A stretch of DNA of 64,000 nt, taken from Actinomycetes bacterium. GTDB taxonomy: Bacteria; Actinomycetota; Acidimicrobiia; Acidimicrobiales; Palsa-688. Made by a program: the position numbers and the translations under genes. The stretch is from contig JAKAQB010000004.1 of assembly GCA_021811865.1 (NCBI GenBank), positions 1 through 64,000 on the forward strand. The letters are read 5' to 3'. Below the pieces are notes generated by a model that made no database searches, was not told where the DNA came from, and worked only from the letters and a program-made list of their open reading frames with translations. Positions 59,874-62,447 of the stretch are shown piece after piece (position 1 is the first letter of the stretch; each line of letters starts with the position of its first letter).

Positions 59874-60119
59874 ATGCCGCTCGATCCACTCCTTCTCGAG
59901 ATCCTTGCCTGCCCGGAGGACAAGGGTCCGTTGCTCTACTTCCCCGACGAGAGCTCGCTCTACAACCCTCGCCTCCGCCGGCGCTACGACGTGCAGGACG
60001 ACATCCCGGTGATGCTCGTGGAGGAGGCCGAGACCGTGACCGACGACGAGCATGCCCGCCTCACGTCCAAGGCCGAGCGGGAAGGCATCACTCCCACCTT
60101 CCCCGAGGGCACGGACTGA
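59874..60119 (+). CDS. Trm112-like protein
   Basis: 81 residues. LDPLLLEILACPEDKGPLLYFPDE and the later RRRYDVQDDIPVMLVEEAE are the bacterial Trm112/YcaR pattern (a small, often zinc-binding adaptor; here only one Cys of the usual pairs is kept). The ATG is two bases after the manB stop with AGGAGG in the manB end, and its stop overlaps the next start by one base. Function in bacteria is poorly defined; the syntenic link with manB and the isomerase is repeatedly seen in actinobacteria as far as I know. Confidence 0.85.
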   Translation: MPLDPLLLEILACPEDKGPLLYFPDESSLYNPRLRRRYDVQDDIPVMLVEEAETVTDDEHARLTSKAEREGITPTFPEGTD

Positions 60120-61153
60120 TGGCGGTCCTCGACACGGTCGGCATGTTTGATCTCACCGCCACCTGGCCGGAGCAGGTTGCGGCCGCAGCTGCCGCCTCCG
60201 CCGGCCTCGAGGGGCTGCCCGACGCGGACGCAGTAGAGCAGGTTGTCGTGCTCGGGATGGGCGGCAGCGGCTTCACCGGCGACGTGGTCACCGCCGTGGC
60301 TTCCCCGCTGGTGCCCGTGCCGGTGCTGGTCGTCAAGTCGTACGAGTGCCCCGCCTTCGTCGGCGACAACACCCTGGTCTTCGCTGTCTCCGCGTCCGGC
60401 AACACCGAAGAGACGATCCAGGCAGCGTCCGACGCGGCCGTCGCCGGCGCACACATGGTGGTCGTCACCGGCGGCGGTGAGCTCGCCCACCTGGCAACGA
60501 GCTGGGGCGCCCCCCTGGTGACCATCCCGGCGGACATCCCGCAGCCTCGCGCTGCGCTCGGGTCGATGGCGATCCCACCACTCGTGGTACTGGAAGACGT
60601 CGGTCTCTTCCGGGGTGCCTCGTACTGGATCGGCGAGGCGGTGGAACAGTTGAAGCGACGCCGGGACGAGCTCTCCGTGGCGGGAGACACCAGCGCCGCC
60701 GCCGAGGTGGCGCGCCTGATCGGGGCAACCATCCCGGTCATCCACGGCGGTGGGGCTGTAGGCGCCGCCGCCGCGGGGAGGTGGCGTACGCAGGTCAACG
60801 AGAACGCCAAGCGGCTCGCCTTCTCGTCCCCCCAGCCGGAGCTGTGCCACAACGAGGTGTGCGGCTGGGCGCCACCCGGCGGCGCCGTGTCTGCCGGGTT
60901 CACGGCGGTGGAGCTACGCCACGACGGCGAGCACCCCCAGGTGAGCCGTCGCTTCGAGCTGGTGCGGGAGATCCTGCTCCGCTCCGGTACGGAGGTGGTG
61001 GAGATCCGTGCTGACGGCGACGGTGACCTCGCCCAGTTGCTCGACCTGGTCATGTTCGGCGACTACGTGTCGCTCTGGCTGGCCGCAGGTGCTGGCGTCG
61101 ATCCCGGACCGGTCCCTGTGCTCGCCGACCTGAGGCAGCAGCTGACGGCCTGA
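60119..61153 (+). CDS. Bifunctional phosphoglucose/phosphomannose isomerase (SIS domain)
   Basis: 344 residues with two SIS domains. GMGGSGFTGDV (about 45-55), SASGNTEET (about 99-107), the catalytic Glu region NEVCGW and a His-containing loop (ELCHNEVCG) place it in the PGI/PMI family first described in archaea. Converts fructose-6-phosphate to glucose- or mannose-6-phosphate, the entry to the manB reaction. ATG 60119 overlaps the Trm112 stop by one base. A TATACT promoter for the downstream RNA begins 13 bases after its stop. Confidence 0.9.
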   Translation: MAVLDTVGMFDLTATWPEQVAAAAAASAGLEGLPDADAVEQVVVLGMGGSGFTGDVVTAVASPLVPVPVLVVKSYECPAFVGDNTLVFAVSASGNTEETIQAASDAAVAGAHMVVVTGGGELAHLATSWGAPLVTIPADIPQPRAALGSMAIPPLVVLEDVGLFRGASYWIGEAVEQLKRRRDELSVAGDTSAAAEVARLIGATIPVIHGGGAVGAAAAGRWRTQVNENAKRLAFSSPQPELCHNEVCGWAPPGGAVSAGFTAVELRHDGEHPQVSRRFELVREILLRSGTEVVEIRADGDGDLAQLLDLVMFGDYVSLWLAAGAGVDPGPVPVLADLRQQLTA

Positions 61154-61172
61154 CCGCGGGCACCCGTATACT
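61144..61172 (+). promoter_or_regulatory. Promoter of the structured RNA
   Basis: TATACT (61167-61172) is a near-consensus -10, best of its kind on this strand nearby. Weak -35 candidates (TGACGG at 61143-61148) lie 18 bases upstream, inside the end of the isomerase gene. Transcription would begin near 61179, one to three bases before the 5' strand of the closing stem of the RNA. Confidence 0.6.
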
Positions 61173-61179
61173 CTCGTGC

Positions 61180-61435
61180 CGGGCCCCAGCGGGTCTGTGG
61201 TTGCAAGTCGAAGCCAGTCGCAGGCGAAACGATCCACGTAAGGCGACTCGTGGTCGCCGAGCACGGTGCGGTTTAGAGGTAAGTCCTGCCCGCCGAGGGG
61301 CCACCGTGGCCCCCCGGCGGAGACGGCCCTACGTGGGGTCACCGGTGGTGTTGGGCGCGAGCCGCCACCGCCGGCCCAGCACGGTTGCAGCAGGCGGGTG
61401 TGGGGACGAAGACCAGGTCAGCCGCTGGGGCCTTC
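61180..61435 (+). ncRNA. Structured noncoding RNA candidate, about 255 nt
   Basis: No sensible protein is encoded, yet both ends pair: GGCCCCAGCGG (61182-61192) with CCGCTGGGGCC (61422-61432), an 11-bp perfect closing stem over 229 bases. Inside are GGCGAC/GTCGCC (61242-61247, 61253-61258), a long hairpin CCGCCG+GGGGCCA with TGGCCCC+CGGCGG (61290-61303, 61307-61320; 13 bp with one mismatch), and a TGGGC/GCCCA pair (about 61351 to 61379). Single-stranded A-rich pieces such as GCGAAACGATCC and GGTTTAGAGGTAAG look conserved-motif-like. A -10 element sits just upstream. Its position before a NarL regulator near a probable secA start is the kind of place where the raiA-type RNA of Actinomycetota occurs, but I cannot confirm membership. 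Confidence 0.7.
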
Positions 61436-61487
61436 TCGCAGTGACTGATCCACTCGGGCTGCTCCGCGGGTACTACCGTGAGCGGCC

Positions 61488-62186
61488 GTGAGCATCGCCG
61501 GCGCAGAGCCCGACGAGGTCATCCGGGTGCTGATCGCAGACGACCAGGCGCTCTTCCGGCGTGGAGTGTTCGTGGTGTTGGCCGGCGAGGATGGCATCAA
61601 GGTCGTGGCGGAGGTCGACAACGGCGAGGACGCCGTTGCCCGCGCCGAGCAACTCGCACCCGACGTGGTCCTCATGGACGTCCGCATGCCCCGCCTCTCC
61701 GGCATCGAGGCCGCCAGGGAGGTCCGAGACCTGCTGCCCACGACCAAGATCCTGATGCTCACTGTGAGTGACGAGGAGGACGACCTCTACGAGGCGATCA
61801 AAGCCGGGGCCAACGGCTACTTGCTCAAGGAGATCTCCGTCGAGGAGGTGGCCGAGGCTATCCGCGCTGTCGTGCAGGGCCAGTCCCTCATCTCGCCGTC
61901 GATGGCCTCCAAGCTCCTCAACGAGTTCAACGCCCTGGCCCGGAGGGCGGCCCAGCAGGAGCAGGTGTCGGCACCGGTGCTCACCGCCCGGGAGCTCCAG
62001 GTGCTGAAACTCGTCGCCCGCGGCCTGTCCAACCGGGAGGTCGCGGAAGAGTTGTTCATATCCGAGAACACAGTGAAGAACCACGTGCGGAACATCCTGG
62101 AGAAGCTTCACCTCCACTCACGCATGGAGGCGGTGATGTACGCCGTCCGGAAGCGGCTCCTCGACCCACACCACCCCGAGGCGTAG
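61488..62186 (+). CDS. NarL/FixJ-family response regulator
   Basis: 232 residues: receiver domain (about 12-130; Asp18-Asp19, phosphoacceptor Asp64 in LMDVRMP, Lys in LLKE) and LuxR-type helix-turn-helix (about 160-220; LTARELQVLKLVARGLSNREVAEELFISENTVKNH). GTG 61488 follows TACCGT by eight bases, so it has its own leaderless promoter downstream of the structured RNA. No histidine kinase is adjacent; an orphan regulator of this type is common near secA in actinobacteria. Confidence 0.92.
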   Translation: MSIAGAEPDEVIRVLIADDQALFRRGVFVVLAGEDGIKVVAEVDNGEDAVARAEQLAPDVVLMDVRMPRLSGIEAAREVRDLLPTTKILMLTVSDEEDDLYEAIKAGANGYLLKEISVEEVAEAIRAVVQGQSLISPSMASKLLNEFNALARRAAQQEQVSAPVLTARELQVLKLVARGLSNREVAEELFISENTVKNHVRNILEKLHLHSRMEAVMYAVRKRLLDPHHPEA

Positions 62187-62270: not shown

Positions 62271-62317
62271 ATAGACGACGCCATTTGGTCGGCTGTGCGC
62301 GCGGTTGCTCTCGGTGC

Positions 62318-62437
62318 GCGCGGCAAGGCGCCGGCGGGGGGTGTGGCGCCGGCGGCGGGGGGGTGTGGGGCCGGTGCGCGCGGCAAGGCGCCGGCGGGCG
62401 CGGCAAGGCGCCGGCGGGCGCGGCAAGGCGCCGGCGG
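62318..62437. repeat. 20-bp tandem repeat x3 plus one separated copy, GGCGCC core
   Basis: GCGCGGCAAGGCGCCGGCGG occurs in direct tandem at 62378-62397, 62398-62417 and 62418-62437, with another exact copy at 62318-62337 separated by degenerate G/C sequence that also contains GGCGCC. It lies between the convergent response regulator and DUF2079 gene, ending ten bases from the latter's stop codon. Confidence 0.85.
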
Positions 62438-62447
62438 GGTGGCGGAC

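Follow-up and report, generated by a model that had tools for sequence, protein, structure and literature searches.

Positions 61184-61430 of the window, which is the whole 64-kb stretch of DNA analysed here, are a member of raiA (ModT), a known family of bacterial structured RNAs. What seems to be new is the context, as the RNA appears from genome sequence to be retained in relatives where the HPF gene was not found. We consider it very probable that the window encodes a separately transcribed, compact and pseudoknotted raiA RNA that has its own promoter, is not the leader of the neighbouring regulator gene, acts in trans, and was kept after HPF was lost. Judged by title and beginning of abstract, the papers listed in literature searches included none on a raiA RNA without RaiA; the gene-order survey of Soares et al. 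2024 may mention such cases. The locus consists of the following features.

60119-61153, + strand: upstream gene, bacterial phosphoglucose isomerase-type SIS protein (PF10432, PF01380)
61184-61430, + strand: raiA RNA (RF03072), 133.2 bits, model positions 1-209 of 209
61488-62186, + strand: downstream gene, NarL/LuxR-type response regulator (PF00072, PF00196)

The match to RF03072 spans the full length of the model, lies 32 bits above the curated Rfam cut-off of 101.3 bits, and is the sole Rfam match in the window at the gathering threshold. A first-pass annotation of this DNA had left the class of the RNA unidentified and possibly new, but had named raiA-type RNA as one class to try. The Rfam scan that it proposed, with raiA among the models, settled the matter for raiA from end to end and contradicted the idea of a new class, which we rejected because of this match. 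Since pk-1 of the solved raiA structure (PMC11751092) is also present in the window, the chance that the RNA represents a new class is negligible. ARAGORN detected neither tRNA nor tmRNA in the 64 kb. A scan for relatives based on the isomerase gave 33 loci. The nearest (L001) is from a metagenome bin, G001, with 96% identity, and the next (L002) is from Acidiferrimicrobium sp. IK (G002) with 75% identity; Acidiferrimicrobium is placed in the Acidimicrobiaceae, Acidimicrobiales. The source of the window is most likely an uncultured relative. A strong RF03072 copy was present, one per genome, in 25 of 27 related genomes, and the search for a second raiA RNA elsewhere in the 27 gave nothing beyond matches of 20.5 bits or less.

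The structural elements of the RNA in the window are listed below. The helix number of the P6-type stem is our own assignment.

61182-61192, + strand: P1 outer stem, 5' arm, paired with 61422-61432 (11/11 Watson-Crick)
61195-61202, + strand: inner P1, 5' arm, paired with 61419-61421 and 61411-61415
61213-61225, + strand: P3 hairpin, whose loop (61216-61222) is one side of pk-1
61242-61258, + strand: P5 hairpin, with both-side changes in 5/6 pairs and 97.9% of cells paired
61267-61273, + strand: pk-Loop side of pk-1, forming 7 pairs with 61216-61222
61285-61289, + strand: P6-type stem, 5' arm, paired with 61390-61394
61290-61389, + strand: arm inside the P6-type stem (P7/P8 region), 32-34 nt in 10/65 RNAs
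61390-61394, + strand: P6-type stem, 3' arm, paired with 61285-61289
61411-61421, + strand: inner P1, 3' arm, partner of 61195-61202
61422-61432, + strand: P1 outer stem, 3' arm, paired with 61182-61192

We aligned 65 RNAs, namely the window and 64 relatives, the latter being 64 of the 77 distinct genomes over the RF03072 cut-off. Scoring covered 40 named pairs and left out pk-2, the P7/P8 pairs and the non-canonical core contacts. Standard pairs were found in 98.3% of 2598 cells (shuffled mean, 87.4%), 19 pairs changed on both sides (12.8 after shuffling), and the covariation score was 0.348 (0.138 after shuffling); 0 of 500 shuffles reached any of the three values. When the partners were slid by 1-3 columns, pairing dropped to 27-52%, a comparison of pairing percentages that by its design favours the unslid structure because the pair list derives from the RNA of the window and from the Rfam model, and 9-13 pairs still had some both-side change. 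The 11-bp closing stem (61182-61192 with 61422-61432) had been described exactly in the first-pass annotation, and in the 65 sequences both partners vary at 10 of its 11 pairs. Both-side changes were also seen in 3 of the 5 pairs of the P6-type stem. The inner P1 is 100% paired and nearly invariant, and since neither it nor P3 varies much, both carry little information by covariation. All seven pairs of pk-1 are standard in 65/65 sequences, with a both-side change in only one of the seven. In the cryo-EM structure of a raiA RNA, pk-1 is formed by seven consecutive pairs (PMC11751092), and another structure paper resolved raiA as a monomer (PMC12286853). The minimum free energy of the window RNA is -138.4 kcal/mol (z = -2.57; an equal or better fold in 2 of 200 shuffles), which is suggestive with regard to the strong internal hairpins noted earlier. 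The real evidence comes from covariation among homologs, a check that had likewise been proposed, and it is found in the outer P1 stem and P5.

61167-61172, + strand: TATACT, the -10 element of the RNA promoter (TANNNT conserved in 65/65)

The TATACT that had been picked out as the -10 of the RNA was upheld by the alignment. A TANNNT starts in the same interval of 17 positions in all 65 sequences, compared with 3.1% of 5235 flank windows, and this conserved -10 follows either the isomerase gene or comFC, depending on the genome. A -35 element is not established because the scan of 61100-61600 gave no sigma-70-type promoter with two hexamers, and the same scan gave nothing resembling a terminator. 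The separate -10 that had been assigned to the regulator (61474-61479) was not borne out; it reads TACCGT and matches weakly, and a promoter of the regulator's own is at most putative. A mechanical 96-codon TTG frame (61201-61491) crosses the RNA. The RNA measures 247 nt in the window, one more than the 246 nt of its nearest relative (G001), and therefore this frame is not kept. Only mechanical frames are present in the gap, so we rejected a coding gap, as the first-pass annotation had done. The covariation, the conserved -10 and the changes in gene order support its proposal of an independent structured RNA that has a promoter of its own.

The gap between the end of the isomerase ORF (61153) and the start of the regulator ORF (61488) has the 334 bases reported earlier. 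The usual neighbors of raiA RNAs are comFC (74%) and the raiA gene (66%), which are common but not defining (quoted in PMC11706538). Both are absent at the RNA of the window, where the isomerase and the response regulator are found instead. In several members of the order (e.g., G186, G035 and G129) the gene order is comFC - RNA - HPF - regulator - secA, and in G008, which is sister to the clade of the window, it is isomerase - RNA - HPF - regulator - secA. The older order was probably comFC - RNA - raiA/HPF - regulator - secA. The RNA of the window is followed by the regulator with no HPF in between, and by gene order the response regulator occupies the place that HPF has in relatives. G+C-rich tandem repeats with units of 20 and 60 bases are found at 62312-62438, in the space that separates the regulator from the convergent DUF2079 gene.

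The lists of RF03072 and PF02482 (RaiA/HPF) matches were compared in 198 genomes from the order of G002. RF03072 was over the cut-off in 59 of them and PF02482 was found in 121. Both were present in 35 genomes, the RNA without HPF in 24, HPF without the RNA in 86, and neither in 53; the filters of the RNA search were stricter and lose weak matches, so the RNA-negative counts are upper bounds. HPF was about equally frequent with the RNA (35/59) and without it (86/139), in a count uncorrected for kinship. HPF follows the RNA directly, no more than 191 nt away, in 33 of the 35 genomes with both, the exceptions being G128, where the RNA is near a contig end, and G141, where the two are on different contigs. 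Of the 24 HPF-less genomes, 10 have the regulator as the first gene recognised behind the RNA, 2 an inverted regulator and 7 secA, so that 19 of the 24 have no room for HPF between the RNA and the next gene. In one of the other five secA lies about 3 kb from the RNA, and in four no gene was recognised within about 4 kb. Most of these genomes are metagenome bins and completeness is stated for none, but loss of HPF through gaps in the bins is unlikely since in these 19 genomes the RNA is followed immediately, within a single contig, by the regulator or by secA. We also made a lineage-tuned profile from 16 HPFs of the order and used it with E up to 1. It detected HPF in 4/4 controls, whose HPFs are of the same kind as the profile rows and in three cases are in or next to these rows, and in 0 of 41 RNA-bearing genomes, including all 24 from the order sample. 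A merely divergent HPF was rejected on this result, and HPF is probably absent from the genome of the window as well.

In a sample of the phylum, the RNA was present in 137 of 396 genomes with an E-value limit of 0.001, 135 of which exceed the cut-off, and PF02482 in 340 of 396. HPF was found in 129 of the 137 RNA-bearing genomes. The eight with the RNA alone are all members of the same order and were already in the order sample. In this sample the uncoupling is thus seen in this order only, and outside it the two occur together, a pattern that speaks for some link between the RNA and HPF. Short HPFs of about 97-136 residues, compared with about 190-220 in many others, were observed behind the RNA in G113, G098, G045 and G068 (L128, L130, L139 and L143). 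It is possible that they are steps towards the loss of HPF.

A quick tree was made for 59 genomes (18 with HPF and 41 without) from concatenated SecA, PMM and PGI sequences, some with missing parts; the window itself is outside this tree. The presence or absence of HPF requires 10 changes on the tree, 7 of which are forced by well-supported branches, and 0 of 500 shuffles gave a number as low. We infer that these changes were losses of HPF rather than gains because its place behind the RNA is constant; the change counts cannot separate the two. The nearest relatives of the window form a clade of 25 HPF-less genomes beside the HPF-bearing G008 (support 99). The RNA is present in 24 of the 25, and the contig of the remaining one, G026, breaks off within the isomerase gene. 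Long branches lead to G027, G141 and G195, the last of which was flagged as meeting the G140 branch.

The position of the RNA in the window, 57 nt upstream of the regulator and on the same strand, together with the Rfam type label of RF03072 (cis-regulatory/riboswitch), would suit control of the NarL-type regulator in cis by a leader or riboswitch. We looked at this in the isomerase-linked HPF-less set (n = 22; G001-G025 minus G008, G023 and G024), with genes recognised by phmmer using single reference proteins, so that small unrecognised genes may intervene. The regulator is next and on the same strand in 12 of the 22, as a leader would have it, but the other ten are different: two have a partial LuxR-like match, two an inverted regulator, one a weak inverted match, three no regulator before the next recognised gene, and two a contig end, one of which shows a fragment of an inverted regulator. 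The two inverted regulators behind the RNA are in G018 (L018) and G022 (L022). Moreover, HPF precedes the regulator in HPF-bearing relatives, and the 3' gene varies by genome among HPF, the regulator, the inverted regulator, secA and others. A riboswitch would be expected to keep its place and strand ahead of the gene that it regulates. This was not found, and because the regulator is inverted or missing in some relatives, the RNA is not tied to it. ModT mutants were complemented in trans (PMC11706538), and a review argues against a riboswitch from distance and orientation (PMC11477304). We rejected a cis element of the regulator on gene order, and a leader function is very improbable.

A function tied to RaiA/HPF, with the HPF-less genomes using a missed HPF or a replacement, would explain the linkage in 33/35 genomes of the order sample and the presence of HPF in 129/137 genomes of the phylum sample. 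The empty search with the tuned profile, the lack of room for HPF and the equal frequency of HPF with and without the RNA all speak against it, and we regard it as very improbable. It is also unlikely, if slightly less so, that the raiA RNA acts alone in RaiA physiology (growth arrest and ribosome storage) and, perhaps with another partner, covers the job of HPF in these Acidimicrobiales, allowing repeated loss of HPF. If the RNA had become purposeless after the loss of HPF and persisted by chance, HPF-less RNAs should be decaying. They are somewhat more diverse, with a mean pairwise identity of 0.771 (n = 41, window excluded) compared with 0.822 in HPF-bearing RNAs (n = 23), which is no test of selection because the sets differ in size and kinship. 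The HPF-less set has 82 invariant columns and the HPF-bearing set 94, and 19 columns fixed in HPF-bearing RNAs, several of them in P5, vary in HPF-less ones. However, all 65 sequences agree at 75 of the 181 well-filled columns, P1 and P5 covary, pk-1 is paired and the -10 present throughout, and nearly the whole HPF-less clade has the RNA (24/25). A decaying relic is thus extremely unlikely, and constraint without HPF remains strong and is perhaps slightly relaxed.

The reading we prefer is that of an independent RNA kept after HPF was lost. Against it we counted the cis-regulatory label, the association with HPF in both samples (HPF directly behind the RNA in 33/35, HPF present in 129/137), the -35 and terminator that were not found, the slightly greater diversity of HPF-less RNAs, and the large share of metagenome bins with no stated completeness. 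Under this reading the RNA would be transcribed from its own promoter as a discrete RNA in this organism and would act in trans, by analogy with Clostridioides ModT. Most likely it would be an abundant and stable RNA that helps to set the transition between growth and stationary phase. The HPF gene, which is between the RNA and the regulator in relatives, would be gone here and the RNA kept, in which case the conserved job of the RNA would be independent of the RaiA protein. Judged by the compared loci, neither HPF nor the neighboring regulator seems to be required for keeping the RNA. The raiA family was named after the gene that it usually precedes, and bacteria that have no HPF and keep the RNA would be a natural knock-out, indicating that the conserved job of the RNA would not need RaiA. 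Acidiferrimicrobium sp. IK, a relative in which HPF was not found, would allow the RNA to be studied by itself.

The stretch within the P6-type stem is 32-34 nt long in 10 of the 65 RNAs, 65 nt in G141 and 81-198 nt in the rest. Nine of the ten short stumps are in one group of the HPF-less clade, and the tenth is in the HPF-bearing G024, elsewhere on the tree. The P7/P8 arm can thus disappear, and whether it does shows no relation to HPF. These compact raiA RNAs are at L045, L048, L049, L051, L052, L054, L056, L110, L119 and L037. In C. difficile ModT, the reactivity of P7 and P8 shifts once proteins are removed (PMC11706538). The short-stump RNAs would be a second natural deletion, in which the arm that responds in this way in C. 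difficile is missing.

The growth-transition role proposed for the RNA of the window would be the one described in the Clostridia. The family Halobacteroidaceae belongs to the Bacillota. Acetohalobium arabaticum (Halobacteroidaceae) is given as Actinomycetota in section 10 of PMC11706538; with the family in the Bacillota, no actinobacterial raiA RNA would have been tried in the complementation of that paper. According to the same paper, C. difficile ModT rivals rRNA in abundance and stability and acts in trans, its deletion led to a later transition to stationary phase, there is a link to c-di-GMP, and ligand binding and RNA processing were raised as options for it (PMC11706538). C. difficile ModT has an intrinsic terminator (PMC11706538), whereas none was found in 61100-61600 of the window. 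Unlike the raiA/ModT RNAs studied in C. acetobutylicum and C. difficile, the RNA of the window is behind an isomerase gene rather than comFC and before a response regulator rather than HPF, and no HPF was found in the relatives of the window. Within the order, the comFC-linked loci of G186, G035 and G129 have the same RNA and an orthologous regulator and secA, and differ in the HPF between the RNA and the regulator, which the window lacks there. With the raiA/ModT RNAs of Clostridium acetobutylicum and Clostridioides difficile, the RNA of the window shares P1, P3, P5, a P6-type stem and the 7-bp pk-1, and like them it matches the full-length model, has its own promoter and, judging by its relatives, occurs as a single strong copy.
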